From positions 1 through 29,297 of IMG/VR virus record IMGVR_UViG_3300036884_000003: a stretch of DNA of 29,297 bases; one strand, given 5' to 3'. The notes under the pieces were generated by a model. That model was not told where the DNA came from and searched no databases. It saw only the letters and a list, made by a program, of their open reading frames with translations. The translations under genes and the position numbers were made by a program. Shown here in pieces: positions 1 to 26,100 of this stretch. Source of the stretch: a virus. Position 1 is the stretch's first letter. Every line of letters starts with the position of its first letter.

Positions 1-413
1 TTTCAAAAAATCAAATAATATGGGGGGGGAATTATTTTGCGGATTTATTATCACCAAGCATGGGATGGTTGGTATGGGATAAGGGACAGCGGGATTTTTC
101 CCTAGCCGATGGCGAGTTGGCATGGACATCTTTTGATAAGGCTTTAAGAATATTCACTTATGCCAGGGCCTCAGCACTACAAGACGGTAAGGAGCATCCC
201 ACGCAGAAGGCACTCGCTCTTATGGAGTGGTGCTTAAATCTTAGGGCGAGTAAATCTGATATAATATTTGACCCTTTCCTCGGCTCCGGCACAACCGCCC
301 TAGCCTCCGAGCGTTTAGGCCGTCGCTGGATAGGCATAGAAAAGGAACCGAAGTATTGCGCCATAGCACAAAAGCGAATTGACGCTGAACGGGCGCAAGG
401 CAAACTATGGTAG
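1..413 (+). CDS. DNA adenine/cytosine-N4 methyltransferase, C-terminal part (5' end outside window)
   Basis: The reading frame is open from base 3 to the stop, so the gene begins before the window; the first in-window ATG at 60 is internal. The translation upstream of that ATG (segments QIIWGGNYF and LLSPS) runs smoothly into the rest. The protein would transfer a methyl group from S-adenosylmethionine to an exocyclic amino group in DNA. Visible family marks are an HPTQK segment followed by FDPFLGSGTTALA (from about base 267), which is the FxGxG SAM-binding motif, and then the RWIGIE segment typical of this fold. The DPPY catalytic motif should lie upstream, which is the order of beta-class N4/N6 enzymes. 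In phages such genes usually protect DNA from restriction. The target sequence cannot be read from this fragment. Confidence 0.9.
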   Translation, partial: SKNQIIWGGNYFADLLSPSMGWLVWDKGQRDFSLADGELAWTSFDKALRIFTYARASALQDGKEHPTQKALALMEWCLNLRASKSDIIFDPFLGSGTTALASERLGRRWIGIEKEPKYCAIAQKRIDAERAQGKLW

Positions 414-442
414 TTGTAATAGATGTTTTCTTTTAGTATAAT
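414..442 (+). promoter_or_regulatory. Candidate sigma70 promoter upstream of the replication gene
   Basis: A -35 element TTGTAA (414-419) and a perfect -10 element TATAAT (437-442) are separated by exactly 17 bases. Transcription would begin near base 449, a few bases before the paired hairpins at 458-508, so the RNA would start with those structures. The -35 matches consensus at four of six positions. The promoter assignment is an inference from sequence only. Confidence 0.55.
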
Positions 443-457
443 TGTGGTAGTGGAAAG

Positions 458-516
458 GCCGACCATGACCGGCGAATAATTTAGGGCTTCTCGTCATGGG
501 GAAGCCCTGTTGTTTT
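458..516 (+). ncRNA. Two adjacent hairpins with complementary loops (possible kissing-loop leader RNA or attenuator)
   Basis: Hairpin 1 has stem GCCG (458-461) with CGGC (470-473) and loop 462-469. Hairpin 2 has the 8-bp stem AGGGCTTC (483-490) with GAAGCCCT (501-508) and loop 491-500. The loops contain the exact complements CCATGAC (463-469) and GTCATGG (493-499), so seven loop-loop pairs are possible. A U-rich stretch (TGTTGTTTT, 509-517) follows hairpin 2, which could therefore act as a terminator or attenuator. The structure starts about 10 bases after the predicted transcription start and ends just before the ribosome binding site of the O-like gene. I do not recognise it as a named RNA family. 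It may be only a terminator with chance loop complementarity. Confidence 0.45.
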
Positions 517-530
517 ATGGAGGATAATTA

Positions 531-1250
531 ATGGCATGGATTAAATTATATGGCGAAGTTTCAGAAAGCGCAAAGCTGATAGAATTTTCGGAGTCTCTAA
601 AAATATCAGAAGCTACAGCATTAGGTCATTTGGTTTTCCTTTGGATGTTTACGGAACGGAACGCCTGGAGAGATGGAAACTTGGAAAAATGGGGAGCGCG
701 GGGAATTGCGCGGGCGGCTGGCTGGACTGGACAAGCTGAAGATTTTTTAACAGGGGCGCAATCTTCCGGATGGATAGATGGTTGGCAGATTCACGACTGG
801 CGCGAACATCAGGCGGGTATGATTCACGACAGAGAACGGAGAAATCCCCGCGAAATCCCCGCGAAATCCCCGCCTAGAGTAGATAAGATAAGAGTAGATA
901 AGATAAGAGTAGAAACGGATAACGTGCCGCAAGCGGCGGTAACCTTGCCAGATTGTCCGCATCAGGGCATAATAAACATCTACCATGAGGAATTGCCAAC
1001 CATGCCTAGGGTTGTGGAATGGACACCGGCACGTAGGGCGTTTTTATCGGCTCGGTGGAAAGAAAAGACTGAACGCCAAAATATTGAATGGTGGCGGAAG
1101 TTTTTTGCGTATATTGCAAAAAGCGATTTTCTCACTGGCAAGACAAAAAATCCGTTCATGGGTTGTAATTTGGAATGGATTATTCGCCCGTCAAATTTTG
1201 TAAAAATAATAGAGGGTAATTATGAAAACGAAAAACGGAGGTCAAACTAA
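531..1250 (+). CDS. Lambda O-like phage replication initiator
   Basis: A 239-residue protein with the two-part layout of phage replication initiators. Residues 1 to about 105 resemble a winged-helix DNA-binding region (a KLIEF...LGHLVFLWMF helix pair, then GWIDGWQIHDW). Residues about 106-135 form a charged linker containing RVDKIRVDKIRVE. Residues about 140-239 are the C-terminal region common in phage replication proteins: YHEELPTMP, then WW..FF, SDFLTGK and NFVKIIEGNY. By analogy with lambda O it would bind origin repeats and load host or phage helicase. A GGAGG box (520-524) precedes the start. The stop overlaps the next start as TAATG. The linker DNA holds two tandem repeat sets, a likely origin. 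The family call is by pattern recognition. Confidence 0.78.
   Translation: MAWIKLYGEVSESAKLIEFSESLKISEATALGHLVFLWMFTERNAWRDGNLEKWGARGIARAAGWTGQAEDFLTGAQSSGWIDGWQIHDWREHQAGMIHDRERRNPREIPAKSPPRVDKIRVDKIRVETDNVPQAAVTLPDCPHQGIINIYHEELPTMPRVVEWTPARRAFLSARWKEKTERQNIEWWRKFFAYIAKSDFLTGKTKNPFMGCNLEWIIRPSNFVKIIEGNYENEKRRSN
841..873 (+). repeat. Three perfect 11-bp tandem repeats in the replication gene
   Basis: The unit GAAATCCCCGC occurs at 841-851, 852-862 and 863-873 with no spacer and no mismatch. Eleven is not a multiple of three, so each copy is translated in a different frame; conservation is therefore at the DNA level. The position, in the linker of a lambda O-like gene, fits initiator-binding iterons. 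One turn of helix per unit would place bound protein on one face. Confidence 0.85.
876..912 (+). repeat. Two and a half 15-bp tandem repeats in the replication gene
   Basis: The unit AGAGTAGATAAGATA occurs at 876-890 and 891-905, followed by a partial copy AGAGTAG (906-912). It encodes the repeated VDKIR in the linker. Together with the 11-bp repeats two bases upstream it makes a compact 72-bp repeat cluster, the best candidate for the phage origin. These could be initiator sites or an easily melted, A+T-rich element next to them. Confidence 0.8.
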
Positions 1251-1660
1251 TGGCATTTGAAAAAGACGATATGTCCAGCAATCCAGGCGCAAAACAGCGT
1301 GAGGAGTGGTTTTCTCGGTGCGTTAATTGCTTTTACGATGGTGACCGGATGGAATATGGACAGAAAATATCCGGCAATAAGACGGCGGGGACACTATTAT
1401 CATCTCTGCCAGTTATTTTAGACGGAGAGGAAGTCGCCCGCGCCGGATGGTGTATGTTATGCAAAACTTATTACGGGCTTTCTCGCACAGACAAGGGCCG
1501 GGAATTGCAATTAAACCCCAGGCAATTATCCGAAATGGTAAAACATGGCGGCGCGACCGTAACAGAATATACACAGGGCGACTACGATTCAGCCAGGCGC
1601 AATCTTTTTGCTGAAACGCCCAATGCTCCCAACTGGCAGGAATCCTGCGAGGTGGCATGA
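1250..1660 (+). CDS. Hypothetical phage protein with two CxxC pairs
   Basis: A 136-residue protein I cannot assign. It has a CVNC pair near residue 25 and a CMLC pair near residue 70, which together could bind one zinc ion. The rest is polar and lacks membrane segments or a signal peptide. Its start is coupled to the replication gene (TAATG), with the GGAGG box (1237-1241) lying inside that gene, and its stop overlaps an in-frame alternative start of the next gene. Its place after the O-like gene suggests an early function. Nucleic-acid binding is a guess based only on the cysteine pairs. Confidence 0.75.
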   Translation: MAFEKDDMSSNPGAKQREEWFSRCVNCFYDGDRMEYGQKISGNKTAGTLLSSLPVILDGEEVARAGWCMLCKTYYGLSRTDKGRELQLNPRQLSEMVKHGGATVTEYTQGDYDSARRNLFAETPNAPNWQESCEVA

Positions 1661-1695
1661 TTATGGATAAAATCAAACAGGAACGGAGGTGGGAA

Positions 1696-1944
1696 ATGAG
1701 CGATAAAATAGAAATAAAGATAGAAAAAATTACCACATACTCGATAGCGATTTACAATGCAGATAATTTGCGCTGTCATCCTGATTGCCAGTATTGCTAT
1801 AAAGATGACGGGCAATATCAATGTGCTAAGTATAAAATTTGTGTAGATAATGGGGATTTTGAAGATACGAAAGATATGTATGGATTTAAGCGTTGCGATA
1901 AATGCCTATCTGAATTTGGAACGGAGCCAACCAATGTTAAATAG
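1696..1944 (+). CDS. Small cysteine-rich hypothetical protein
   Basis: An 82-residue protein. The ATG at 1696 is chosen over one at 1657 because a strong GGAGGT box (1686-1691) sits five bases before it. Eight cysteines cluster in the middle and C-terminal part, including CHPDCQYC and a CDKC pair near the end, suggesting a zinc-binding fold. No family is recognised. It overlaps the following gene by 11 bases in another frame. Confidence 0.7.
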   Translation: MSDKIEIKIEKITTYSIAIYNADNLRCHPDCQYCYKDDGQYQCAKYKICVDNGDFEDTKDMYGFKRCDKCLSEFGTEPTNVK

Positions 1945-2329
1945 CTTAGTCGTATCTTTGGAGACTGCGAAATTTCTAAAGGAAAAGGGGTGGAGTAAGC
2001 CGACGGCGTTTGTGCAAGTAAAACATTCTAATAAAATTTATGAGTTACGCGCACATTCAACATCAATGGATACATATAAGGTTCCATATTTACCCGCCCC
2101 GACCGCCGAGGAGATTTTGCGGGAGTTGCCGGAAAGCATTAAAATAAAGAGAAAGCCCCTATGGTTATCCATACATAAAGATGCCGATATTGTAGGGTTT
2201 TTTTTATCATATCTTTCCGGTGATAATGTTGATATGGTGGTAATGCCGTCTAATAAATCCCTCTCCGAAGCCGCCGCGCAGATGTGGATATGGTGTAAGG
2301 AAAATAATTATTTGGAGGGGAAGAAATGA
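1934..2329 (+). CDS. Hypothetical phage protein
   Basis: A 131-residue protein. The start at 1934 has a GGAG box (1923-1926) seven bases upstream; a longer in-frame extension to 1850 overlaps the previous gene and lacks a good ribosome site. The N-terminus (SLETAKFLKEKGW), the middle (PAPTAEEILRELP) and the C-terminus (LSEAAAQMWIWCKENNYL) look like a conserved protein frequent in phage early regions, whose function I do not know. No catalytic motif, membrane segment or signal peptide is visible. The stop overlaps the next start (ATGA). Confidence 0.75.
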   Translation: MLNSLVVSLETAKFLKEKGWSKPTAFVQVKHSNKIYELRAHSTSMDTYKVPYLPAPTAEEILRELPESIKIKRKPLWLSIHKDADIVGFFLSYLSGDNVDMVVMPSNKSLSEAAAQMWIWCKENNYLEGKK

Positions 2330-2511
2330 AAATATTAGTAGCCTGCGAGGAGAGCCAAGCGGTTTGTAAAGAGTTTAGAGCGTTAGGACACGAAGCATAC
2401 TCATGTGATTTATATCCGTGTTCTGGCGGACAAGAGGAACGCGCAAAAGCTAGAAGTAAAACCTTCCCCGGAATTGCAAAGGCAATGGCGGCCCAATGGG
2501 GGAATTTATGA
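2326..2511 (+). pseudogene. Internally deleted remnant of a phage DNA methylase-like gene
   Basis: The 61-residue product begins exactly like a common phage protein usually annotated as a cytosine methyltransferase (MKILVACEESQAV, then GHEAYSCDLYPCSGG) and ends exactly like its C-terminus (EERAKARSKTFPGIAKAMA). In full-length relatives, as I recall them, these ends are separated by about 150 or more residues that carry an HPPC motif and the rest of the catalytic fold. Here they are joined in frame at about residue 36. The frame is intact, with a strong GGAGGGG box upstream and ATGA overlaps at both ends, so a short protein is probably made, but it cannot be an active methylase. Calling it a pseudogene rests on memory of the family, not on a search. 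Confidence 0.75.
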
Positions 2512-2687
2512 AATTATGCGAACACGCCCTAGTATGCTCTGCCTCCGATTGTTGTGGTTATGGCGAACCGCACGAAACGCAAAAGGCGAAAGCTATTTGC
2601 GGATATGCGAAAAAATACTTTCGGTCTGGCGAGATAATTCTAGTTGAGGTTAACTACGGTAAAAAAAAGATTGACAATTCTAAATAA
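2508..2687 (+). CDS. Small cysteine-rich hypothetical protein
   Basis: A 59-residue protein starting at the ATGA overlap with the preceding gene, with a GGGGGA box (2498-2503) upstream. An ATG 12 bases earlier is possible but has no ribosome site. Five cysteines (C4, C10, C15, C16 and C31) occur in the first half, and the C-terminus is lysine-rich. Not recognised. Its last codons contain the -35 element of a promoter for the next gene. Confidence 0.6.
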   Translation: MKLCEHALVCSASDCCGYGEPHETQKAKAICGYAKKYFRSGEIILVEVNYGKKKIDNSK

Positions 2688-2699
2688 ATTGCGTAATAT
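2671..2699 (+). promoter_or_regulatory. Sigma70 promoter, near-consensus (copy 1)
   Basis: A perfect -35 TTGACA (2671-2676) and -10 TAATAT (2694-2699) are separated by 17 bases. The 18 bases around the -10 (2686-2703) recur with one mismatch at 2969-2986 in a second promoter of identical geometry. It lies across the end of one small gene and just before the gene at 2719. Confidence 0.75.
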
Positions 2700-2718
2700 T
2701 TGGCCTTGAGGTAAAAAT

Positions 2719-2979
2719 ATGGCTATGAATTGCAAACAATGCGGTATGCAAACGGAATATCGAGACTACTACGGTAATCCAATCTGTCAACCATGTGCTG
2801 AGAAAGCCGGGGCTATTTATTCATCGAAATCCGAACCGAAGAATAACTGGAACAATTACAACAAAATGATTGCTGAACCTTTTGTTCCATCTATAGAGGA
2901 CGCAATTGAATCTGCATTGGATGAGCTTTGGAACTCTGACGGAGAAAAAGATGTTGACACCGTTCGGGAAATTGGGTAA
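2719..2979 (+). CDS. Hypothetical zinc-ribbon protein
   Basis: An 86-residue protein with an N-terminal zinc ribbon: CKQCG at residues 5-9 and CQPC near residue 23, so four cysteines can coordinate one zinc. The rest is acidic and probably helical. A GAGGT box (2708-2712) precedes the ATG; a second ATG at 2725 is also possible. It is the first gene after promoter copy 1 and its end carries promoter copy 2. Role unknown. Confidence 0.7.
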   Translation: MAMNCKQCGMQTEYRDYYGNPICQPCAEKAGAIYSSKSEPKNNWNNYNKMIAEPFVPSIEDAIESALDELWNSDGEKDVDTVREIG

Positions 2980-2982
2980 TAT
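2954..2982 (+). promoter_or_regulatory. Sigma70 promoter, near-consensus (copy 2)
   Basis: TTGACA (2954-2959) and TAATAT (2977-2982) with a 17-base spacer. The 18-base block at 2969-2986 matches 2686-2703 at 17 positions. The -35 and spacer lie within the end of the zinc-ribbon gene; the promoter would serve the gene at 3015 and those after it. Confidence 0.75.
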
Positions 2983-3014
2983 TTGGTATGGAGTTAAATT
3001 AAACGGAGGTAGTA

Positions 3015-3347
3015 ATGAAACCTGAAACAATAAAGATAGACGGGGTGGAATATGTCGGGAAGGACGCACAAAAGACACCGGAATATTCTGGAAGTCTTAA
3101 AATAGTAATACTTCAGCGTGGATGGGTAATGGTAGGAAGATTAGAAAAAAACGGTAACGATTGCAAATTACATAACGCTCACGTCATCAGATGTTGGGGA
3201 ACAACAAAAGGATTAGGAGAATTAGCCGAAAAAGGGCCTCTACAAAATACCAAACTTGATAAATGTTATGGGATTGTTGAGTTTGATAATTTGACAATCG
3301 TTGCAACCGTTTCCATAAAAGAGGAAATATGGAAAACCGTAATATAA
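3015..3347 (+). CDS. DUF6948-like hypothetical phage protein
   Basis: A 110-residue protein resembling a conserved phage family I recall as DUF6948. The recognisable core is IVILQRGWVMVGRLEKNG, then HVIRCWGTTKGLGELA, GPLQNTKLD and an IKEEIW end. No enzymatic role is established to my knowledge. A strong GGAGGT box (3005-3010) lies four bases before the ATG, and promoter copy 2 is directly upstream. Its last 19 bases overlap the next gene in another frame. Confidence 0.75.
   Translation: MKPETIKIDGVEYVGKDAQKTPEYSGSLKIVILQRGWVMVGRLEKNGNDCKLHNAHVIRCWGTTKGLGELAEKGPLQNTKLDKCYGIVEFDNLTIVATVSIKEEIWKTVI
3291..3319 (+). promoter_or_regulatory. Weak promoter candidate before the Gly-rich repeat gene
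   Basis: A perfect TTGACA (3291-3296) is followed after 17 bases by CATAAA (3314-3319), four of six -10 positions. It is inside the end of the DUF6948-like gene, ten bases before the repeat gene. The third TTGACA in about 0.6 kb makes it worth listing, but it may be chance. Confidence 0.3.
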
Positions 3348-3625
3348 ATTTTGACGAAAATCAAAATTCCGGCTCCGGCTACGGCTCCAGCTACGGCGAC
3401 GGCTACGGCTCCGGCTACGGCGACGGCTCCGGCTACGGCTCCGGCTACGGCTACGGCTACGGCTCCGGCTCCGGCTACGGCTCCGGCGACGGCTCCGGCT
3501 CCGGCTACGGCTACGGCTCCGGCGACGGCTACGGCTACGGCTCCGGCTACGGCTCCGGCGACGGCTCCGGCTACGGCTCCGGCTACGGCTCCGGCTCCGG
3601 CTCCGGCTACGGCTCCGGCTATTAA
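3329..3625 (+). CDS. Gly-Ser/Tyr/Asp dipeptide-repeat protein
   Basis: A 98-residue protein. A short polar head (MENRNINFDENQNS) is followed by about 84 residues of alternating glycine with serine, tyrosine or aspartate. A GAGG box (3320-3323) precedes the ATG. Such a chain should be disordered and flexible; tyrosine-glycine repeats can be sticky and phase-separating in other proteins, but that is only analogy. Short phage proteins with similar GYGSGDG runs exist in my memory, with no known role. Almost every glycine is GGC, serine TCC, tyrosine TAC and aspartate GAC, unlike the varied codons of neighbours, so the array has grown at the DNA level. It is followed by a terminator-like hairpin. 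Confidence 0.65.
   Translation: MENRNINFDENQNSGSGYGSSYGDGYGSGYGDGSGYGSGYGYGYGSGSGYGSGDGSGSGYGYGSGDGYGYGSGYGSGDGSGYGSGYGSGSGSGYGSGY
3371..3622 (+). repeat. Hexanucleotide repeat array (GGCTAC / GGCTCC / GGCGAC)
   Basis: About 42 tandem 6-bp units, each GGC plus TAC, TCC or GAC, run almost without interruption through the preceding gene (one AGCTAC unit near 3389, last unit GGCTAT). All three forward frames are open across it; the alternative frames give Ala-Pro/Thr and Leu-Arg runs. It is much richer in G+C than its surroundings and should be prone to slippage and length change. Confidence 0.9.
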
Positions 3626-3633
3626 AAATGTGG

Positions 3634-3692
3634 CGTAGTCATTCTACGATAAGGCCGGAAGCCCCACGGGATAAACGGCCCGTCCATTTTTT
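3634..3692 (+). terminator. Terminator-like hairpin after the repeat gene
   Basis: A small hairpin CGTAG/CTACG (3634-3638 with 3644-3648) is followed by ACGGG (3666-3670) pairing with CCCGT (3679-3683) and then, three bases later, six T (3687-3692). An alternative pairing GGCCG (3653-3657) with CGGCC (3676-3680) is possible. The stems are only five pairs, so the terminator would be modest. Confidence 0.45.
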
Positions 3693-3703
3693 ATAGAGGT
3701 GAT

Positions 3704-3862
3704 ATGGCGAAATTATTAGAGCGTAGTCAATGGGTAAAAAACAGAGCAAGGCGCAAGGGTAAAAAGATTCTAAAGTTTCGATTACGTCAAACGGAAACGG
3801 ACATAAAAACTTTAGCAACGGAGGATATATGGCAAATGTTGGAAATACGAAGCCAGTTATAA
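3704..3862 (+). CDS. Small basic hypothetical protein
   Basis: A 52-residue ORF starting MAKLLERSQWVKNRARRKGK, with a good GAGGT box (3696-3700) three bases before the ATG. The first 30 residues are strongly basic, the C-terminal part is mixed and probably helical. It is the first gene after the terminator-like hairpin and overlaps the next gene by 34 bases in another frame, with that gene's ribosome site inside it. Nucleic-acid binding would fit the charge but is not shown. Confidence 0.55.
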   Translation: MAKLLERSQWVKNRARRKGKKILKFRLRQTETDIKTLATEDIWQMLEIRSQL

Positions 3863-4068
3863 AGATTATCACAAGCAAGACGGCTTGCACGATTGTTAGA
3901 TTAGGAACTACTTTCGCAAATTGGTGTGACCGTTGCGACTACAAGTGCATAATAGACTGGCCTGACGTAGAATTTCAATACACAAACGACGCTATGCTTT
4001 ACGCAATAGCGTTAACAAAATCGGAGCAATTCAAAGGGTGCGAGATTGTGATGGAGATAAAGAAATGA
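3829..4068 (+). CDS. Small hypothetical protein
   Basis: A 79-residue protein with a CDRCDYKC cysteine cluster in its middle and no recognised family. A GGAGG box (3820-3824) precedes the ATG. The stop overlaps the start of the next gene (ATGA). The composition, with alternating hydrophobic and polar residues near the N-terminus, suggests a small beta-rich fold. Confidence 0.6.
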   Translation: MANVGNTKPVIKIITSKTACTIVRLGTTFANWCDRCDYKCIIDWPDVEFQYTNDAMLYAIALTKSEQFKGCEIVMEIKK

Positions 4069-4262
4069 AAAAGCTGATACTGTTGTGCGCGGTGGGGTTG
4101 ATGTGCGGATGTGAGCGCGTAGACCAAGTAAACGGATATCAGAAGGCTAAATCCGAAAATCTTCTCGCGTATGTTAAAGCCTGCACGGATAGAGGCGGTA
4201 TTATACGTGAATCCATAGCAAAAGGAGTTGCGTGCGAAGAAGTACGGGAGGCCACGAAATGA
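4065..4262 (+). CDS. Small probable lipoprotein
   Basis: A 65-residue protein starting MKKLILLCAVGLMCGC, a short basic end followed by a hydrophobic core and then MCGC, a non-canonical but plausible lipobox with the second cysteine as the lipidated residue. The mature part would be about 50 polar residues outside the cytoplasmic membrane. The start at 4065 is the ATGA overlap with the preceding stop; an upstream ATG at 4038 would bury the signal. Phage lipoproteins act in lysis (Rz1-type spanins), exclusion or cell-surface change; none can be chosen here. Its site in a block of small genes, away from any lysis cassette, is unusual. Confidence 0.55.
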   Translation: MKKLILLCAVGLMCGCERVDQVNGYQKAKSENLLAYVKACTDRGGIIRESIAKGVACEEVREATK

Positions 4263-4567
4263 AAGCGTTTAGAGAGTTGGTGTTGGCATTAAAGGGTCTT
4301 AATAGGGAAAGGGAAGGTAATCCGTTCTGCTGTTGCGATTGTGCCATAGACAACCCAAACATGCATGGAGAGCATTCGTCGCACTGTAAATATATCCGCC
4401 AATTAATTACATCTTCCGAATCCGAGCTTGCGCGTATGGAGAACGCAATATCTAGCGAGGGCGTTTTTTATGGGAATGAAGATGAGGCCATAAAACTAAC
4501 GGCTCTATTTTCGACAAGAATGTTAAAAGGCAAGCGCGTCAAAATCATGATTATGGAGGTGGAATAG
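4259..4567 (+). CDS. Hypothetical protein with a cysteine/histidine cluster
   Basis: A 102-residue protein starting at the ATGA overlap, with GGAGG (4246-4250) upstream. Residues about 23-43 contain CCCDC, then H..HSSHC, enough cysteine and histidine to bind zinc. The flanking parts look helical (MKAFRELVLALKGL at the start). No family recognised. Confidence 0.6.
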   Translation: MKAFRELVLALKGLNREREGNPFCCCDCAIDNPNMHGEHSSHCKYIRQLITSSESELARMENAISSEGVFYGNEDEAIKLTALFSTRMLKGKRVKIMIMEVE

Positions 4568-4568
4568 G

Positions 4569-4709
4569 ATGGAAAAATTGATAGAAGAGTTTCAAAATTT
4601 TCTAGCCGGAAGAACTAATCCCGATATGATGAGCCAATCGGAATACCGGGAGTTTCTGAAGGAAATAATCGAAGAGTGCAATCTACGTCTATCCACAATG
4701 GGAGAATGA
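4569..4709 (+). CDS. Very small acidic hypothetical protein
   Basis: A 46-residue ORF, MEKLIEEFQNFLAG to the end, acidic and probably all helical. It starts two bases after the previous stop and ends in an ATGA overlap with the next gene. The GGAGG of the ribosome site lies at 4556-4560, inside the preceding gene's last codons. Supported mainly by its fit in the chain of coupled genes. Confidence 0.5.
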   Translation: MEKLIEEFQNFLAGRTNPDMMSQSEYREFLKEIIEECNLRLSTMGE

Positions 4710-5056
4710 CCAGGCCGAATAACGACTGGCGGGATTCATGTGAAAATAAAAATCGGTTTAGTCGGGATTTGGAAGAGGGGAAATCGGCCTATGTCTCATG
4801 TAAGAGGGTCGATACTTGCTCAGTTTTTAAAAATGGGAAATGTAATTTAGCCGCAAAAATAATAGACGCAATTAATTGCTCTATAGAAATCGAGGCCGCG
4901 ATGAAAGAAGAAAAAGAGAAGGCGCAGAGGCTGGCTGATGCGGCACGAGAATTTTGCGGAGAAACAGATATGTGCCTTCACGGTGGAAGGAGCTGTGTTG
5001 CAACCGCAATACTCAACATTCAGTCCGCGCTCAAGGAATACGAGGAGGGGAAATGA
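4706..5056 (+). CDS. Cysteine-rich hypothetical protein with a helical C-terminal half
   Basis: A 116-residue protein. The start at 4706 (ATGA overlap) is preferred to an ATG at 4676 that lies deep in the previous gene. Cysteines occur at CENKN, SCKRVDTC, GKCN and later in the MCLHGGRSC segment; a segment of about 25 residues rich in E, K and A lies between. No family recognised. The stop overlaps the next start. Confidence 0.6.
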   Translation: MTRPNNDWRDSCENKNRFSRDLEEGKSAYVSCKRVDTCSVFKNGKCNLAAKIIDAINCSIEIEAAMKEEKEKAQRLADAAREFCGETDMCLHGGRSCVATAILNIQSALKEYEEGK

Positions 5057-5247
5057 ACAAGGATAGAAATTGGGCCATAACGTGGTTTACGACGTGCTGG
5101 ATATTGATTATTGCGGTATTTTACGCCGGGGCTAAGATACATCAGCAACAGCGCGAGATTGAAAACCTGACGAATAGTAATACGGTTTTGATTAGCCAAT
5201 GCGCGAACGCAAGTAAGATTATGGAGTTTAAGGCGGCACATAAATGA
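5053..5247 (+). CDS. Small membrane protein with a C-terminal coiled-coil-like segment
   Basis: A 64-residue protein. After a short polar end (MNKDRNW) residues about 8-28 form one hydrophobic membrane segment (including WILIIAVFYAGA), followed by a polar stretch IHQQQREIENLTNSNTVL with a heptad-like pattern. The layout, N-terminal anchor and short coiled coil, resembles small inner-membrane spanin subunits or other phage membrane proteins. It could pair with the lipoprotein 0.8 kb upstream, but spanin genes normally overlap or adjoin, so this is weak. Start chosen by the ATGA overlap and GGAGGGG box (5042-5048). Confidence 0.55.
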   Translation: MNKDRNWAITWFTTCWILIIAVFYAGAKIHQQQREIENLTNSNTVLISQCANASKIMEFKAAHK

Positions 5248-5393
5248 ACGTCCGCTGCCAACACGCTGACGATTGCCCCTGTGGCCTCTATTGTATACTT
5301 GCCAAGGCACATGATACAATAAGACCATTAACGCGCACTTGTGATGATACCAAACGGCGCATTTTATTAATCGAGGTTGAGGAGAAGAAATGA
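5244..5393 (+). CDS. Very small cysteine-rich hypothetical protein
   Basis: A 49-residue ORF that starts in an ATGA overlap and ends in another. Its cysteines (NVRCQHADDCPCGLYC, then TC) suggest a small zinc-binding knuckle. The first histidine and the cysteine spacing resemble other tiny proteins of this block. Not recognised. Confidence 0.5.
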   Translation: MNVRCQHADDCPCGLYCILAKAHDTIRPLTRTCDDTKRRILLIEVEEKK

Positions 5394-5644
5394 AAAAAAT
5401 GATAAAAGGTTGGTTCAGTAAATCTATTGAGTTGCCCCCCATAACTTTTACTGTTCCAGAGCAGGAAACGGAAAAAGTATTAATTATGATAGATGAGTTG
5501 TATAAATGTGGAGAGGCAAATAACCTGGCAAGGTATCGGCTATGGATATACTTGCAATCTCTTTTCCCGCCAATCAGGGAGGGAAATTGGTCATGGGATA
5601 TCATTAAATCCAGAAAGATTATTATAACGGAGAATATAGAATAA
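5390..5644 (+). CDS. Small hypothetical protein
   Basis: An 84-residue protein starting MKKMIKGWFSKSIELPP, with GAGGAG (5379-5384) ahead of the ATG. It looks like a small mixed alpha/beta protein without cysteine clusters, signal peptide or membrane segment. Overlaps neighbours at both ends (ATGA and TAATG). No function can be read. Confidence 0.6.
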   Translation: MKKMIKGWFSKSIELPPITFTVPEQETEKVLIMIDELYKCGEANNLARYRLWIYLQSLFPPIREGNWSWDIIKSRKIIITENIE

Positions 5645-5841
5645 TGCCATTCAAAAATGAATCAGACCGAAAGAAATACGCTAAGATGTATCGGGCGAAA
5701 TATCATACAGCCGGGTATTATTCTAAGCAGGATAAATTACAGGAGGCTAGGGCGGATAAACTCGCCGCGAAGGTAAAGACATTCGCTGAAATTGTGCGCG
5801 ACGGAACGGAAGAAGCTACGCTGAATGGGGGCGGGAGATAA
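5644..5841 (+). CDS. Small basic hypothetical protein
   Basis: A 65-residue protein starting MPFKNESDRKKYAKMYRAKY, lysine- and tyrosine-rich in the first half and probably helical throughout. It starts in a TAATG overlap with GGAG (5631-5634) upstream and ends in another TAATG. The beginning resembles the lead-in of some phage HNH or ribbon proteins, but no such domain follows. Function unknown. Confidence 0.6.
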   Translation: MPFKNESDRKKYAKMYRAKYHTAGYYSKQDKLQEARADKLAAKVKTFAEIVRDGTEEATLNGGGR

Positions 5842-6197
5842 TGGCGTTTCTGTATCTGGCGGCGGAATATCAAATACGATTAATTGTTAAACCCAAAAAA
5901 TATAAGAATAGCCGGATGTGGAAAGGTGTAATATGGGGCGCATATAATACAGATACGGGGCTGTTCGCGCCAGGATTAGGCAAGGAGGCTGTAGGCGATA
6001 TGACTGATACCTGTGGTGTGTATTGGGAAAAATTGAGCGAGAGTGAGATGCCGGGAAAAGAGTATTTTGTTTTGAAATTTAATAAATATCTAAAGGGGAA
6101 AAATAATGCGGGTTTTACAGACACCAACGAAAAAGAAACTAAAAGAATTACGAACCCTAGAATGTCCAAAGTGCGAAAAGATGTTGTGCCGGTTTGA
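5841..6197 (+). CDS. Hypothetical protein overlapping the next gene by 92 bases
   Basis: A 118-residue protein starting in a TAATG overlap with GGGAG upstream. Residues 1-90 look like a compact beta-rich domain. The last 30 residues are coded by the same DNA as the start of the next gene in another frame and are polar and low in hydrophobics. No family recognised. Either the tail is a genuine overprinted sequence, or the ancestral gene ended near 6106 and read on after a stop was lost. Confidence 0.55.
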   Translation: MAFLYLAAEYQIRLIVKPKKYKNSRMWKGVIWGAYNTDTGLFAPGLGKEAVGDMTDTCGVYWEKLSESEMPGKEYFVLKFNKYLKGKNNAGFTDTNEKETKRITNPRMSKVRKDVVPV

Positions 6198-6288
6198 TAG
6201 TAAGTTGCGCGACGATTACCATTACTGCGAGTTTTGCGGGCATGAGTTTATTGTAGACGATATGGCGCATAAAAATGTGAGGTATTAA
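6106..6288 (+). CDS. Small zinc-ribbon protein
   Basis: A 60-residue protein with a clear zinc ribbon: CPKCEKMLC around residue 20 and CEFCGHEF around residue 41. The N-terminal 18 residues are basic. An AAGGGGAA box (6093-6100) precedes the ATG. The domain layout is that of Com-like or generic zinc-ribbon phage proteins; the precise role cannot be assigned. It overlaps the preceding gene by 92 bases. Confidence 0.65.
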   Translation: MRVLQTPTKKKLKELRTLECPKCEKMLCRFDSKLRDDYHYCEFCGHEFIVDDMAHKNVRY

Positions 6289-6289
6289 A

Positions 6290-6655
6290 ATGTTCTATAT
6301 ATCCCAATCCCAAAAAGATGATTGGATGTTTGAACTTGAGCGGAAAAAAGGGAAATACTGCAAATTATGTGGGCGGAAATTGGATATAGAAATAAATTAC
6401 ACAACAAATGAGAAAATTTATACGGATACTTGCATAAAGTGCCTATCTAAAAATACATCAAATATTCCAAGCTCATGGAAAAACTATCAAAAAAAACCAC
6501 AATACCAGACCGATGAATATGAGGAATTTATGCACAGGCGTAGCTCCCGGTTAATTGATTGGAAGGATTACCGGATAAAAAAGACTATTGCATTAAATAG
6601 CAACTGCTACTATAATATATTTGCGGCACAGTGGGCGTTCTCAATTATCCAATAG
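6290..6655 (+). CDS. Hypothetical protein with two CxxC pairs
   Basis: A 121-residue protein with CKLCGRK near residue 24 and CIKCLSK near residue 48, a probable zinc finger, followed by a basic, aromatic C-terminal half (EEFMHRRSSRLIDW). A GAGGT box (6280-6284) lies upstream. It is the last gene of the early block; a 132-base gap follows before the terminase genes. No family recognised. Confidence 0.6.
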   Translation: MFYISQSQKDDWMFELERKKGKYCKLCGRKLDIEINYTTNEKIYTDTCIKCLSKNTSNIPSSWKNYQKKPQYQTDEYEEFMHRRSSRLIDWKDYRIKKTIALNSNCYYNIFAAQWAFSIIQ

Positions 6656-6776
6656 ACGCGACTTGTAGCCGCAACAATTTAACAGTCCGCCATAAGCCTC
6701 TTAACAATGCTCAAATCTTGGCGGCATAAATTTGGTGTCGAGGCAAATACGCATGACGCACCCGCCAGCCATTACG

Positions 6777-6834
6777 AGAGGCACTAGATGCCCAAATGTA
6801 ATAGAGGCCCAGAGAACCAAGAGTTCCAAGAGGC
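6777..6834 (+). repeat. Three AGAGGC repeats spaced 26 bp apart at the start of the terminase gene
   Basis: AGAGGC begins at 6777, 6803 and 6829, exactly 26 bases apart; the last two are followed by CC. The first copy contributes to the ribosome binding site of the small terminase gene and the others lie in its first codons. An inverted repeat CCGCCAGC (6762-6769) / GCTGGCGG (6839-6846) brackets them. Phage packaging sites often lie in or by this gene, so this is a pac candidate, without further support. Confidence 0.4.
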
Positions 6835-7306
6835 CCGCGCTGGCGGAAAATTTAATATGAATAAACTAACACCACGGCAAGAGCGATTCTGTCAGGAATA
6901 TATTAAAGACCTGAACGGTAAACAGGCTGCTATCCGCGCCGGATACACAGCAAAAAGCGCAGAGGTAACGGCATCAAAAATGCTAAGCATTGCAAAGGTT
7001 TCTGCTAGAGTGGTTGAACTTACCGCGCCCGCTGCTAAAGCCGCAGGACTTACCAAAGAATATGTATTGGAAGGATTGAAAGAAGTTGCGGAGCGTTGTC
7101 GCCAAGGTGTGCCGGTGATGATTAAAGATGAAAATGGGAAAATGATTCAGTCCGGGGAATGGAAATTTGATAGTGCTGGCGCAAACCGTGCGCTTGAATT
7201 GCTGGGCAAGCACCTTGCGATATTTACCGATAAGGTTGAGCATAGCGGCGGTCTTACCCTTGAGCAGCTTGTCGCGGGGTCTATGAAGCCGGAAGATAAA
7301 CAATGA
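6788..7306 (+). CDS. terS: Terminase small subunit
   Basis: A 172-residue protein of the Terminase_2 type. The hallmark is the N-terminal helix-turn-helix region LTPRQERFCQEYIKDLNGKQ, AAIRAGYTAKSA and ASKML, residues about 26-60. The C-terminal half (ANRALELLGKHLAIF, then LTLEQLV) is also typical. It would recognise the packaging site and present DNA to the large subunit. The start at 6788 has GAGAGG (6776-6781) at good spacing; an internal ATG at 6857, where similarity begins, is the alternative. The stop overlaps the next small gene (ATGA). Confidence 0.88.
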   Translation: MPKCNRGPENQEFQEARAGGKFNMNKLTPRQERFCQEYIKDLNGKQAAIRAGYTAKSAEVTASKMLSIAKVSARVVELTAPAAKAAGLTKEYVLEGLKEVAERCRQGVPVMIKDENGKMIQSGEWKFDSAGANRALELLGKHLAIFTDKVEHSGGLTLEQLVAGSMKPEDKQ

Positions 7307-7470
7307 ACATGGCGCGATGTTTCAAATGCGGCTTAAAGATACCGGGACGTTGGAAAAATGGCGTTCCTAAATCATGTCCTGTTTGTGGATTCAATGGCTC
7401 TGCGGAAATGGCAAAGCAAGCGGTTAAGGCTAAACTGGAAAAGATAAAGAATGACCCCAGCCGAGAATAA
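7303..7470 (+). CDS. Small zinc-ribbon protein between the terminase subunits
   Basis: A 55-residue ORF starting in an ATGA overlap with the small terminase gene and overlapping the large terminase gene by 20 bases. It carries CFKCG near residue 6 and CPVCG near residue 25, a four-cysteine zinc ribbon, then a lysine-rich helix. It could be a DNA-binding accessory of packaging, but no such role is established and its call rests on gene coupling and the cysteine pattern. Confidence 0.6.
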   Translation: MNMARCFKCGLKIPGRWKNGVPKSCPVCGFNGSAEMAKQAVKAKLEKIKNDPSRE

Positions 7471-8947
7471 TATAAAACAGTGGCGATTGAATCCCGCGCA
7501 ATTCGTGCAGGAGCAATTTCAAACCGAGCCAGATAGATGGCAGTTGTCCGCCCTAGAATCCTTCGCGCAACAAGATAATGTTAAGCTACGACTTGCCCTC
7601 AAAGCCTGTGCTGGCCCAGGCAAGACCGCAGTATTGGCATGGATAGGTTGGAATTTCTTACTCTGCTATGGCGGCGTAGGTCAACACCCAAAAGGTGCTT
7701 GCGTTTCAATAACCAAAGACAATTTAATGGACAACCTGTGGCCCGAATTCTCTAAGTGGCAACAGCGCAGTCCGATATTGCTTGAAGCCTTTACGTGGAC
7801 AGGCTCGCGTATATTCGCAAAAGACCATCCCGAAACATGGTTTATGTCGGCGCGTAGTTGGCCTAAGACCGCGAATGAAGACGAGCAGGGGCGCACGTTG
7901 TCCGGCTTACATAGCGAATACGTGCTATATCTCATAGACGAATCTGGCGATATTCCTCTGCCGGTGCTTAAAAGCGCAGAGCAAGGACTATCTAATTGCA
8001 AATTTGGGCGCATAATCCAGGCGGGGAATCCTACGAGTATGAGTGGAATGTTATATGCGGCAGGAACAGCCCTAGCCGACAAATGGCAGACCATTACAAT
8101 CACTGGCGACCCGGACGATGTAAACCGTTCGCCGCGTATCGACAAAGATTGGGCGATTGAGCAGATAAAAACTTATGGGCGCGATGACCCGTGGGTAATG
8201 GCTTATATCTTAGGCAAGTTCCCGCCACAGGCAATCAATGCGCTTATCGGCCCGGAAGAAATAGACGCGGCAATGAGACGGATTATAACCGAGCATGATA
8301 TATCATTCGCTGAAAAGCGTATAGGCGTTGACTGTGCGCGATTTGGCGATGACCGCACCGTAATTGCACGTAGGCAAGGCATAGCGGCATTTCCTGCCAT
8401 ATCAATACGCAATGCCCGGAGTGAGGATATAGCGGCCCGCGTTGGCAACGTGGACAATGATTGGGGCGGTAGTGATATGATATTCATTGACGCGACCGGC
8501 GGCTATGGCGCGGGGCCGGAGGATGCGCTTAGACTGGCGGGCTATAGGACAGTCCCTGTCAATTTTTCAAGTCCTGCTACTAATCCCAAGTATTTCAATA
8601 AGCGCAGTGAAATGCTTTGCGAGTTTGCGGAATGGGTTAAGCGGGGCGGTGGGTTGCCTAATTCCCCGCAACTGAAAAAAGAATTATCAGCGCATACGTA
8701 TTTCTTTGCAAACGGGAAAATCCGAGTAACGGAAAAAGATGCTATCAAGAAGCTGATAAAATGCTCACCAGATGAGGTTGACGCTTATGCGCTTACTTTT
8801 GCAATGCCGGACAAGCCGAGAGGTAATGCAGATTTGGGTAGAAATTCCAAGAGGGGCAAACCGGAGATGTCTCACGGCGAATATAACCCTTTAGATGGCA
8901 TAGAAGAAAAACCCTTGCAAAGCGATAGCAAGTCGCTATACTATTAA
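7451..8947 (+). CDS. terL: Terminase large subunit (packaging ATPase and nuclease)
   Basis: A 498-residue protein. The ATPase half has a Walker A-like segment KACAGPGKT (residues 51-59) and Walker B LIDE (161-164), followed by AGNP (191-194), the motif coupling ATP hydrolysis to movement. The C-terminal RNase H-like nuclease has its acidic residues in IGVDCARFGDD (D294), FIDATGG (D347) and SPDEVDAYA (D441/D444). It drives genome packaging at the portal and cuts the concatemer. Length is normal for the family. The ATG at 7451 lies inside the preceding small gene; no strong ribosome box is seen, so translation is probably coupled. The gene points to a tailed phage with a separate small subunit. 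Confidence 0.95.
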   Translation: MTPAENNIKQWRLNPAQFVQEQFQTEPDRWQLSALESFAQQDNVKLRLALKACAGPGKTAVLAWIGWNFLLCYGGVGQHPKGACVSITKDNLMDNLWPEFSKWQQRSPILLEAFTWTGSRIFAKDHPETWFMSARSWPKTANEDEQGRTLSGLHSEYVLYLIDESGDIPLPVLKSAEQGLSNCKFGRIIQAGNPTSMSGMLYAAGTALADKWQTITITGDPDDVNRSPRIDKDWAIEQIKTYGRDDPWVMAYILGKFPPQAINALIGPEEIDAAMRRIITEHDISFAEKRIGVDCARFGDDRTVIARRQGIAAFPAISIRNARSEDIAARVGNVDNDWGGSDMIFIDATGGYGAGPEDALRLAGYRTVPVNFSSPATNPKYFNKRSEMLCEFAEWVKRGGGLPNSPQLKKELSAHTYFFANGKIRVTEKDAIKKLIKCSPDEVDAYALTFAMPDKPRGNADLGRNSKRGKPEMSHGEYNPLDGIEEKPLQSDSKSLYY

Positions 8948-8962
8948 TTGGAGCGTGAAATT

Positions 8963-9271
8963 ATGGGTGGAGCAGAGTTTTTTGACCCGATAGGAATAAC
9001 GAATTCAGTTTCAAGTTGGTGGAATCATGCTACCGCCGCGCCTAGCAATCCGCTTGAGGGACAACTTAAAGCCCAGGCTGAGCAATCCGCCGCGTTGCAA
9101 AAACAAATATTATCGCAACCAAAACAAGTTGCCTCCGATAATTTCCTTTCCACGAAAAACGCACAGATGAATAAACTCAGAATGGGCCTAGGCTCGACTA
9201 TTACTGGTGCAGGACTATCTACTCCGACGCTGCTTGGCGGTAGCGGCGGTAAAACAAAGTTGGGCGCATAG
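8963..9271 (+). CDS. Small structural-region hypothetical protein
   Basis: A 102-residue protein. A TTG at 8948 would extend it, but the ATG at 8963 has GGAG (8950-8953) upstream. The middle is glutamine- and alanine-rich and helical (LKAQAEQSAALQKQ), the end glycine-rich (LGSTITGAGLSTPTLLGGSG). Small proteins of this look sit between terminase and portal in several podovirus genomes; their role is not known to me. The stop overlaps a GTG start (TAGTG). Confidence 0.6.
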   Translation: MGGAEFFDPIGITNSVSSWWNHATAAPSNPLEGQLKAQAEQSAALQKQILSQPKQVASDNFLSTKNAQMNKLRMGLGSTITGAGLSTPTLLGGSGGKTKLGA

Positions 9272-21355: not shown

Positions 21356-23133
21356 TGAACGTCCCAATGTATGAACCCTCTGTAGGAATTGAAGCCCCGC
21401 AAGTCCCCGATTTACGTATACAGCCAGTTACTTCTGCGGCAAGTGGTGAAGATGTCGCGCAGTCTATGCGGGGTCTAGGTCAGCATATTGAGCAAGGTGC
21501 TGGACAAATTGCAGAACATTTAATCCAACAGGAAAAATTACGGGCACGGGAAGATGCCTCCAATGCCTCCGCTAACTTCGCTCAGGGGATTCAAAATCTC
21601 CATGCCAATCTCGTAACCAATACCGGAGTAAATGCGGATTGGATTTTACATGGCAAACCCGTTCCGCTTCCACAAGGAATGACCAAACTGGATATGCCAG
21701 TATCTGCCCCGATACCTAAAGTAGACCCTAACAGCTATGAAGGGAAAGCTTCGGCATTAATGGCTGATGCGCTGAACGGATTAACCCCTCGCGCCGCGCA
21801 AATAGCGCAAGCATCCATGAATCGGATTTATGATAGTGGCAGGGAAATGATTATCAGCCACCAGTTGCAACAGAAACAAATAGCAGAAAAACAAGCCGAT
21901 GCGGCATCAATGGTAAATAATGCCCAAATTTACGCGGTTACTCTGAACGGAAGTGCTACCGCGACGGGAGAGGCAAAGACTAATCTTGCCAACAATGCGG
22001 AAGCTACATACCAAGAACAGATGAAAGCCATTGCCGAGCAAGGCTCGGAACGTGGCGAATTACAGCCCGTCATTGATAAGAATAAGCGCGACTTTGCGGA
22101 TTATGTGGCAAAAACAGTTTCCGAGAGTGGAAATGTTGTGGCGGTTAAGAACCTACTCTCGGCGCATAAAGCTGATTTTTCAGAGGAAGGTAAGGCATTG
22201 CTTAATGGCAGGATGGTTCATATCGGCGTTCAGGAAATACGCAATTCGCAGACAATAGCGGCAGAGCATTTACTAAATCCAGACCAGACCTATAGCGAAC
22301 AACAGGTATCTAGCTTCGCCAACAAGTTTGCAGATGATAATAATTTTTCGCCAGAGCAGAGAACGCAATTATTGAATGAATCACGCGCGGATGCCGGACG
22401 ACAAAACGGTGCATTAATGCAGACCAGGCAACAGAATTTGGAAACTTGGCATAATGGCGTTATTCAGGATTACAACGCACTTATTAAAAAGAATCCTGCT
22501 ATTGCGTCCGACGCACTAATGTCTAAATATGTAATGAACGACAAGACCGATTTCACAGGATATTCAGCATCGGATATGCAAAAAAAAAGCGATTTTATTA
22601 ACCAACTTTTTGATGATAGACAGAAGGCTATCAGTAAGGCGATGGAATATCTCAACCCTGAACAGCAAGGCGCAGTATATCTGGCGAAACTTTTGATTGA
22701 AGCCAGGACGGGCAATACGCAAAAAATAAGTATTCCCAGTTATGGCGATATTGACGCGAAGGGATATTACGAACATTTGCTTGAAAGCAAAGTTGCGGGC
22801 AGTAATATGACGTCTACGCAGATTATTGATTACACGAATGGCATAATAAAAGATTTCCCAGTATCAAGTGGTATTTTTGGTGCACAAATATCTACTGGCG
22901 GAGCCGAACAATTGAGAAGCGATGCTTTTAATCTTAATGCTCTCGCTAATATCGAAAAAACTCCCGGTGGATATGCGCTTATTAAACAGTTGCATAATAT
23001 CGGGATTACGCAATCCGAAGCGGAGATGGAGTATATGCGCCGCTTAGAAGAAAAACAAAAGATGGCTGACGAACAGAAAAACATTAAAAAACTACCTGAA
23101 AATATTGGGAAATATAAGCGGGGTGAATTTTAA
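21355..23133 (+). CDS. Internal virion protein, T7 gp15-like position
   Basis: A 592-residue, almost wholly helical protein rich in glutamine, alanine and asparagine. The start (VPDLRIQPVTSAASG, then RGLGQHIEQGAGQIAEHLIQ) is like other podovirus internal proteins, which begin with a short extended part and then a long helix. No catalytic motif is seen. By position it corresponds to gp15, a core protein ejected into the periplasm with the DNA. Ribosome site GGAGG (21343-21347) in the previous gene's end; TAATG overlaps at both ends. Confidence 0.75.
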   Translation: MNVPMYEPSVGIEAPQVPDLRIQPVTSAASGEDVAQSMRGLGQHIEQGAGQIAEHLIQQEKLRAREDASNASANFAQGIQNLHANLVTNTGVNADWILHGKPVPLPQGMTKLDMPVSAPIPKVDPNSYEGKASALMADALNGLTPRAAQIAQASMNRIYDSGREMIISHQLQQKQIAEKQADAASMVNNAQIYAVTLNGSATATGEAKTNLANNAEATYQEQMKAIAEQGSERGELQPVIDKNKRDFADYVAKTVSESGNVVAVKNLLSAHKADFSEEGKALLNGRMVHIGVQEIRNSQTIAAEHLLNPDQTYSEQQVSSFANKFADDNNFSPEQRTQLLNESRADAGRQNGALMQTRQQNLETWHNGVIQDYNALIKKNPAIASDALMSKYVMNDKTDFTGYSASDMQKKSDFINQLFDDRQKAISKAMEYLNPEQQGAVYLAKLLIEARTGNTQKISIPSYGDIDAKGYYEHLLESKVAGSNMTSTQIIDYTNGIIKDFPVSSGIFGAQISTGGAEQLRSDAFNLNALANIEKTPGGYALIKQLHNIGITQSEAEMEYMRRLEEKQKMADEQKNIKKLPENIGKYKRGEF

Positions 23134-26100
23134 TGGATTTAGAAAATCAGGAGATACCCAATACCGATAATTCTAATATACTCAATGGCATAGATGTTTC
23201 AGACTTAAAAGATTCATCTACACTTAAAAGCAATTATGATTTTGTTGCTTCGCAGAACCCGAATGATGTTGCTGATACGGTAAAACTTGCAAAGCAGTTT
23301 GATGAATCGCCTATTTTCATATCCGCTAATCTTAAAAAAGCGCGGGAAGCTGCTGCCGCGCCAGATTTCGATGCTATTTCTAAATTATTCCCCCATACTG
23401 CTAAATTTTTTTTAGACCAAGAGAAAATGGCACAAGCGTATGATGATTCTGCCAGTTTAATGAAACTTGAAGCCGCCGGACAGGTACATAATGCGATAAT
23501 GGATGGGTCGCCAGTTGCCGCAAATAGTATGCTTACCGCTTTCGGCGGAGGTCTTGAACATTCGGTCATCGGTCTTATGTATGGCAGGCCAGATGTTGAA
23601 TTGCCAGAAAATGCGCCCTTCCAGCAGAAATTAGCCTATACCGTGGGGAATCTTATACCCGATTTGCCTGTTATGACTGCTGGTAGTTTTTTGGCGGCTC
23701 CCGCTGGGCCTATTGCAGCCACAGCAGGAGCATTTGCATTACCCACAGCAATTCGGCAGACCATACTTGAACATTATAAAAACGGCGATATAAACGATAC
23801 CGGCGAACTCATGCGCCGGATATTCGCCATTGGCAAGGAAACGGCCAAGAGTGCCGCTATTGGCGCAGCTACGGCAGGTGCTGGCATAGTGGCTCAAAAG
23901 GGCGTAGAAGCTGCCGCAGGCGTGGCAAGCGATGCTTTAGGAACAGGCGTAGAATATGCCGCCAAAGTAGGCGCAGTAAACACCGCCAAGACTGCTGGAG
24001 AACTTGCCGGAATGACGGCGGCGGGCGCAGCAGTTGAAGGCAAAGGCACATCTTGGGAAGATTTAGCCCTCAACTCCATAGTTATAGGCTTGATGCACGG
24101 CACAGGGTTATTGCGTGGAAAAGCGCAAGATATGCGGGCCGAGGCCATTAAAGCCGAAACCACGAAAGCCGCATATATGAAAATGGCGGAAGTGGTAGAC
24201 CAGTCCCCGCTTAAAACGCGCAATCCTGAATTACTTGCAGATCATGTAGACAATGTTATGCTTCCCGCCATGATGCGAGTTGGAGATTGGGATACCTTTT
24301 TCCAAAGTCAGGGTTTAGACCCTGCCAAAATTGCCGCCAAATTCGGGCAGGATGTTAAAGATTCATACGACGCCGCCAAATCAACAGGAACAGGCGATGT
24401 AATCATTCCCGCCAGCGTGGTAACCAGCGAGAATATGAAGCCGTACATATCTGGTCTTTCCGATAATATCAGGACTGAACAAAACGGGATGTCGCTTAAT
24501 GATTTCCAGAAGCAACAGGAAATTTTGAAAGCCGCAAAAACTCGATCTGATAAGTTGGTAAAAGACAACGCTGATATCAAACTGGCACGCGAACAGATTT
24601 TACAGGATGTAAACCAGAATATGTCCGGCGCAATGGAAAAATCTATCGGCGCAGGCGCAAAGGAAAGTACAGCAGATGTGGCGCAAATGTTTACCAATAT
24701 TATAATTTCACAGGCAGACGCGCGAGGTTATAAAAGCCCGATGGTGTTTTACAACGAGATTAAGCGGAATAACCCGGATTTGTTTAGAGTTGGGGAAGCC
24801 GCCGCTTCTGTCCATAGTGAGATGTATGACTTGGCAAAAGACGCGCTTGGGGTTGAACGTGAAGCGATTAAACCATCTCCCGAAATTTTACAGGCAAAGA
24901 ACGCGGTATTTGAAGATGTAAAAGGACGGCTTTTAGAAATAGGACGTGATGAATCTAACGCGGACGCGGAAGCTTCTTTGTGGGCTTCTCATGTGATAGC
25001 GGAAAGCCAGAGGCGTGGTATTGACCCAATGGAGCTTTATACCCAAAGCAAACTTAAACCACGCGCAGGAATTGCGCCGGAAGGAACAGAGTTGATGCAG
25101 GGTGGCGGAAAAGATTATGAGAAAACATATCCATCGGCAAGCGATATAGTGTCTGGGCTTAAAGTTAGAAAACATATACCAAACCAATCATCAATTGAAG
25201 CATCCATAAGCCACCCTGAATATCTTAATGGAGTGCGAGAAGTGCCGCTATCCATGTTTCCTGAACCACCCACAATCAATGAAAGAACAAAAGCACTTGC
25301 AGAAGCTATAAAAAAATCCGGCGAAATAAATCCTTTAATTGTTGGGGTGGATTCAAAAGGGCCTTATATTATAGAGGGCGCACATAGATATGATGCGCTT
25401 AAAATATTGGGGGTTAAATCCATTCCGGCTCAAGTAATTATTGATACCGAAAACCCCCTTTCCCAATCCCCCGCAGAATCATTCTATCAATCCGCATGGC
25501 ATGGTTCGCCGCATGATTTTGATAAATTCTCATTGCATAAAATAGGCACTGGTGAGGGAGCGCAGGCTTATGGTTGGGGGCTTTATTTTGCTGGGGATAA
25601 AAATGTTGCGGAGTATTATAGGCAAAAACTTGTAGGAGCAAATTTCCCCCCGCCGCGCCCGGATATGTTTACCGTGGATGGAAAATCTTATGCGAAAGAA
25701 AATGGTAAATTTCTTTTTATTTTGGGGCTTCCCCCTGGCGACGGAAGTGAAATCACCAAGGCCGAATATTCTAAAGCCTTTAGGGCCGCCCAATCAGAAT
25801 ATGAAGCCAAATCAAAATCAGGCAAACTCTACGAAGTTGACATTCCCGAATCAGACAAATTGCTGGATTGGGATAAGCCGCTTTCGGAACAGAGCGAGTA
25901 TGTTAAAGAAAAATTAAAAGATATTGAAAAAAATAATGCAAACTTTAGTATAGAACCGCGTGGCAAGAAATTTGCCGTAGTTATGGAGAACAATGAATAT
26001 GGAACATATAACGAGGAAATACAAGCTAAGCGGAGGCTTGAATACTTAAATAAGGCATATAATGATGAAAATGGTTCATTGATATATTCAAGACTAACAC

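Follow-up and report, generated by a model that had tools for sequence, protein, structure and literature searches.

What two adjacent hairpins with complementary loops do in front of a phage replication gene is the question raised by this locus. The hairpins lie in an IMG/VR virus record of 29,297 bases, the whole of which was analyzed and is referred to as the window. A sequence-only reading had placed a promoter-like site before the hairpins, had proposed that their loops pair by kissing rather than as an H-type pseudoknot, and had suggested a short RNA or attenuator controlling the replication initiator. The features concerned are the following.

414-442, plus strand: promoter-like site TTGTAA-17-TATAAT (TTGTAA at 414-419, TATAAT at 437-442)
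458-473, plus strand: hairpin 1, made of GCCG (458-461), the 8-base loop ACCATGAC (462-469) and CGGC (470-473)
463-469, plus strand: kissing bases of loop 1, CCATGAC, with two-sided changes at 5 of 7 positions in the four copies
474-483, plus strand: A-rich linker ending in two bases able to pair at the foot of hairpin 2
482-509, plus strand: hairpin 2, terminator-like, with 482-492 paired with 499-509 and the loop at 493-498
493-499, plus strand: kissing bases of loop 2, GTCATGG; kissing frees G499 from the pair that closes the loop
510-516, plus strand: T-rich run TTGTTTT, directly after hairpin 2
519-524, plus strand: ribosome-binding site GGAGGA, read from the sequence and unpaired with the element
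531-1250, plus strand: replication initiation protein gene (phrog_5810, 8.5e-24), for which no Pfam match was found

Analysis of the window confirmed two hairpins with perfectly complementary loops. The kissing-hairpin element spans positions 458-509, and CCATGAC and GTCATGG are exact complements over 7 bases. Hairpin 2 was found to extend over 482-509 rather than 483-508, as first described; its loop is GTCATG, which becomes GTCATGG when kissing. The energy of hairpin 1 is -6.7 kcal/mol (z -2.0) and that of hairpin 2 is -19.2 kcal/mol (z -5.8), the latter being classed as terminator-like by a terminator scan. The chance level was estimated with 150 dinucleotide-preserving shuffles of the whole window, plus strand, using a descriptor for adjacent hairpins with at least 6 complementary loop bases. 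This gave 0.067 matches per shuffle, and 0.007 when at least 7 bases and a stem 2 of at least 8 pairs were demanded; the real plus strand contains one match under strict settings.

Two other IMG/VR virus records contain three further copies, giving four copies in three records. A search of 2.9 million virus contigs with the initiator protein yielded three loci, two of which carry the element. The first of these (L004) is the end of a 5,873-base record that is also present as L009, with the copy at L009:5746-5795. It is identical to the window over the first 57 bases of the coding sequence and over the 20 bases preceding the ATG, and in 42 of 51 aligned columns of the element. The second, L002, is a 30,922-base record whose initiator is 71% identical to that of the window in the C-terminal part. 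The third (L003) had no match to the strict descriptor. A descriptor scan located another copy at L009:3400-3450, 5′ of a helicase gene that matches Helicase_C and DEAD. All four copies are on the sense strand directly 5′ of an early gene: outside the window two precede a replication gene and one the helicase gene. In the window the gene starts at 531, and a leader RNA of the replication gene, as had been proposed, is supported; the supposed specificity for the initiator is unsupported, given the helicase copy. Across copies the element measures about 52-61 nt.

Some neighbouring features of these records were recorded. The end of a DNA N6/N4 methylase gene (window 60-413) precedes the element, and methylase genes also lie 5′ of the initiator copy in L009 and, by sequence only, in L002. 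Positions 3-914 (plus strand) of L002 hold an open frame of near-identical repeats of about 10 residues (GGTVHAI, GGTVNDI and the like). Upstream of L009:3400, a stretch of 140 nt looks structured by eye, yet its fold is no better than that of shuffles (z -0.29).

The most constant parts of the element are GCSGAC...CSGC and the A-rich linker. The stem of hairpin 1 is identical in the L009 copies and has one compensated pair in L002; the first loop base of hairpin 1 (A) is constant and unpaired. The loops behave differently: the kissing pairs are CCATGAC/GTCATGG in the window, CTGCGAC/GTCGCAG and CGCGAC/GTCGCG in L009, and CCGCCAG/CTGGCGG in L002. No homologue was found to keep the stems without loop complementarity, the pattern that the sequence-only reading had named as refuting it, since both stems and the loop pairing are retained in all four copies despite the altered letters. 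All 27 loop-loop pairs are standard, 5 of the 7 positions are changed on both sides, and in each copy complementarity ends at the loop edges.

For the three close copies the full structure has 59 of 59 cells paired, with 6 pairs showing two-sided changes, a result equalled by 1 of 500 shuffles. When the partner was slid by 1-3 columns the paired cells dropped to 29-44%. Only 2 of 24 partner assignments paired fully, namely the true one and the swap of the two L009 copies (the permutation skips the gapped position). The L002 copy was found by a covariance model that was based on the three close copies, L002 being excluded, and that treated the loops as unpaired (32.0 bits, E = 1.6e-6 over 70,874 bases). 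As L002 was joined to the family by stems and linker, its loop pairing is a largely separate test. Four copies with shared ancestry are few, and the covariation evidence is therefore good, not overwhelming. G.U pairs occur in stem 2 of the window element (two) and of both L009 copies (one each) and are absent from L002, which fits an RNA of the plus strand. Judging from the sequences compared, the two-hairpin feature is real and its kissing complementarity is maintained by selection on structure; covariation across the four copies likewise bears out the preference for kissing over an H-type pseudoknot.

Kissing in cis is also geometrically feasible. The linkers are 10, 9, 11 and 10 nt long, the shortest being in the copy with the 6-pair kiss. 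By a rough coaxial A-form estimate 51-55 Å must be spanned, and the linkers reach 59-71 Å at 5.9 Å per step. Secondary structure was predicted with ViennaRNA, which gives kissing no score. When 446-530 was folded, hairpin 1 was absent from both the MFE and the centroid structure and the MFE paired 446-448 instead; when 450-518 was folded, hairpin 1 was present in both. Its formation thus depends on the transcription start. In the MFE structures of the window and L009:5746-5795 the A-rich linker pairs with the T-run instead, and this predicted pairing is a possible competing state.

The promoter that had been read as TTGTAA-17-TATAAT is present and agrees with the consensus in 10 of 12 letters. 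However, such sites are common in the window (22 in 1-9000, against 18.1 ± 4.7 in shuffles), so that the site alone is weak evidence, and it is not conserved in L009. The L002 copy has a promoter-like TTGACA-17-TATGAT. The consensus scan found no promoter-like site near L009:3400-3450; at L009:5746-5795 it gave only a site inside the element, with an extended -10 seen by eye just upstream. In the window and L002 the start is predicted to lie near hairpin 1. Over the 60 nt that precede hairpin 1, window and L009 are identical in 31 of 63 positions, the random median being 48%, and by this alignment the putative promoter lies outside the homology. The homology starts at hairpin 1 itself (window 458, L009 5746) and the sequences upstream are unrelated, as if the leader were a joint of module exchange.

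Hairpin 2, flanked by A-rich sequence and followed by the T-run, is terminator-like in all four copies, each having a run of at least 4 T after the hairpin; in L002 and L009:5746-5795 the run is set off from the stem. Terminator scores were 25.6, 15.6, 6.4 and 4.1 for the four copies, which is weak to moderate. By the same formula four of five bacterial terminators used for comparison scored 40-65, well above the element; for the fifth (L150, -31) the script chose a poor hairpin. In 369 bacterial genomes the best matches of the covariance model were plain terminators of the same build.

The position before the ribosome-binding site, the weak termination and the tertiary contact with the terminator loop lead us to propose, tentatively and as the most likely reading, that the element attenuates transcription in cis from within the leader of early phage genes. 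Attenuation, one of the roles suggested earlier, is supported as a possibility. The structure of the element is well supported; its function and the direction of its effect we infer, including termination in vivo, the influence of kissing on it and the sign of that influence. Transcription would start just 5′ of hairpin 1, and RNA polymerase would make both hairpins. Hairpin 2 and the T-run would form a weak intrinsic terminator before the ribosome-binding site, some transcripts ending as an RNA of about 65 nt and others reading through into the gene. The hairpin 1 loop would kiss the hairpin 2 loop through 6-7 pairs, with the A-rich linker bridging the stacked helices. Loop 2 would emerge from the polymerase ahead of the 3′ arm of hairpin 2, so that hairpin 1 could seize it first, and such early capture should shift the balance between termination and read-through. 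It is somewhat more likely that kissing favours read-through, by hindering nucleation of the terminator. An extended antiterminator helix was considered and rejected: in all four copies the longest perfect complementarity comprises exactly the loop bases, and this confinement to the loop edges argues against it. No regulator, ligand or leader peptide using the switch was identified.

The main rival to the attenuator is an antiterminator of the put type, in which a two-hairpin RNA binds elongating RNA polymerase and later terminators are ignored. The HK022 putRNA is a cis-acting phage RNA of about 70 nt with two stem-loops, present in two copies per genome, one of them near its promoter; it folds into a V shape, has an RNA triplex in stem I and binds RNA polymerase (PMC9378689, in the text available). 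The element resembles it in having two hairpins within about 60 nt near an early transcript start, as seen in the window (for L009:3400-3450 no promoter was found), and in occurring twice in one genome, L009, as do putL and putR. However, putRNA is described as two long stem-loops with a triplex, and the available text of PMC9378689 mentions neither kissing loops or a pseudoknot nor a T-run after hairpin 2. In the present element the loop sequences differ freely from copy to copy, and the T-run behind hairpin 2 suggests termination. We consider a put-like role unlikely.

The same freedom of loop sequence within a conserved structure, together with the predicted start near hairpin 1 in the window and L002, could be expected of a compact kissing fold that guards the 5′ end of the mRNA from ribonucleases or serves in processing. 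A single hairpin would suffice for that, the conserved A-rich linker and the T-run would have no explanation, and L009:3400-3450 has no nearby promoter; such a shield seems rather improbable.

It is a shade less probable still that the leader, once terminated at about 65 nt, acts in trans through its loops on other copies carried by the same genome or by a co-infecting phage, giving type-specific control. The loops do differ between phages: those of the window and L002 match foreign partners over at most 4 contiguous bases, and the two L009 copies cross-pair over 5. By the partner permutation the loops of different phages are private, with cross-pairing possible within L009. Against action in trans, the two loops that would pair are suitably spaced on a single transcript, and cis pairing should win. 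The loop 7-mers show no marked excess elsewhere in the window (CCATGAC in 2 places, GTCATGG in 4). The consensus scan found no opposite-strand promoter-like site near the window element (414-530) and no minus-strand one near the other three copies.

These observations also bear on the comparison with plasmid copy-control RNAs. In the ColE1 RNAI/RNAII system loop-loop contact takes place between two opposite-strand transcripts. The 6-7 pair contacts are alike, and this part of the comparison stands; it fails in that both loops of the element are on one predicted transcript, separated by a linker of 9-11 nt, with no antisense promoter-like site. Rep attenuators of the pT181 and pIP501 type use a counter-transcribed antisense RNA and alternative long helices. 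A terminator-like hairpin between promoter and rep gene is present here too, with weak scores; the complementary loops, however, are in cis and the pairing is loop-confined. Since the element also occurs before a helicase gene and an antisense partner was not seen, a copy-control RNA of the plasmid type is unsupported.

The constancy of GCSGAC...CSGC and of the linker could point to a protein-binding site, in RNA or as nested inverted repeats in DNA, through which early genes autoregulate. This we regard as improbable: a DNA operator needs no compensatory changes confined to two loops, the G.U pairs of stem 2 are mismatches on the other strand, and no protein partner was identified. A reading in DNA only, as a cruciform or operator, is disfavoured by the same plus-strand G.U pairs and by the hairpin 2 fold (-19.2 kcal/mol on the plus strand against -13.2 kcal/mol). 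Chance, or ordinary back-to-back hairpins without functional loop pairing, gains something from the small number of copies (four, three of them close relatives) but is very improbable, as two 8-base loops share at least 6 complementary bases with a per-copy probability of 0.008 and at least 7 with 0.001, the pairing recurs in L002, which was linked by stems and linker, and the covariation disfavours it.

No named RNA family matched, in agreement with the sequence-only reading. Rfam 15 gave no match at the window element at the gathering cut-off or up to E 5 and none at the L009 and L002 elements at E up to 0.5; the full L009 and L002 records had none at gathering. A literature search, mostly of sources short of full texts, found no description of such an element. 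ANTAR dual-hairpin leaders, whose hexaloops need A at position 1 and G at position 4, likewise have a pair of leader hairpins, of which the second is close to a terminator, and are repeated before several genes. The element differs in that the A1/G4 rule fails (hairpin 2 loops as compared start with C or T, their 6-base versions with G), hairpin 1 loops are of 7-8 nt and the two loops pair with each other. The guanidine-II (mini-ykkC) riboswitch has conserved ACGR tetraloops and a ligand. It shares with the element two short hairpins in loop-loop contact, whereas the element has loops of 7-8 bases that vary in sequence, and Rfam gave no match for it.

The element is rare, being present in three virus records only with the searches made. 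DNA-pattern searches of virus contigs returned 0, 14, 20 and 4 stretches, among which the real ones were L009 only in the 14 and in the 20, and L009 and the L002 record (as L140) in the 4. The protein-based sets comprised 3 loci for the initiator, 14 for an initiator alignment, 80 kept of 104 for the helicase, 1 for a second gene and 1 of genome contigs. The 14 initiator relatives (two being the L002 and L003 records again) and the 79 helicase relatives besides L009 had no further copy, and the loop-pairing descriptor found no further real copy on the pattern- and protein-found loci. Descriptor matches that arose (3 in 565 kb, 4 on three loci, 4 on L014 and 1 on L032) were judged to be chance because they are GC-rich, apparently within genes, or without a T-run, some of them having been inspected base by base. 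Absence elsewhere holds within the limits set by incomplete records and by search patterns that demanded the known stem letters.

A phage database gave three weak BLAST matches (E about 10) and otherwise nothing useful. Acetobacter phage phiAP1 (L143 3001-3024) has hairpin 1 and the linker, 92% over 25 bases in an intergenic gap, with no hairpin 2; at E about 10 this is probably chance. In the model search, 7 of the 369 bacterial genomes had a match at E ≤ 0.01, and inspection showed every such match to be a plain terminator; one of them, L153, has two hairpins with 5 complementary bases partly in the stem. A Herbaspirillum match is also a terminator.

If the attenuator proposed here is true, a protein-free switch of about 60 nt would place an intrinsic terminator under a loop-loop contact within one nascent RNA. 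It would offer a directly testable model of tertiary contacts acting on termination. Its interchangeable loop codes would supply orthogonal parts, and the early replication genes of uncultivated phages would gain a further point of control. A bolder and unlikely extension is that this kissing terminator is a new class of phage leader RNA, in which the upstream hairpin grips the terminator loop of the same nascent transcript and sets read-through, the loop pairs being freely re-coded and private to each phage. The terminated leader could then give type-specific control between co-infecting phages.

Two other features of the window were observed. An abiF RNA (RF03085, 44 bits, cut-off 37) lies at 6687-6725, plus strand, just before the terminase small subunit gene; it is present in a single copy, and the Abi_2 protein was not found in the record. 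The related RNA of C. difficile is an antitoxin and carries two motifs of this kind, according to the available text of PMC12373285, and by this analogy the window RNA may be a phage-borne orphan antitoxin. Positions 23133-28718 (plus strand) contain an open frame of 1861 residues with an LPD22 polyvalent-protein domain in its first part (23133-25200 scanned).
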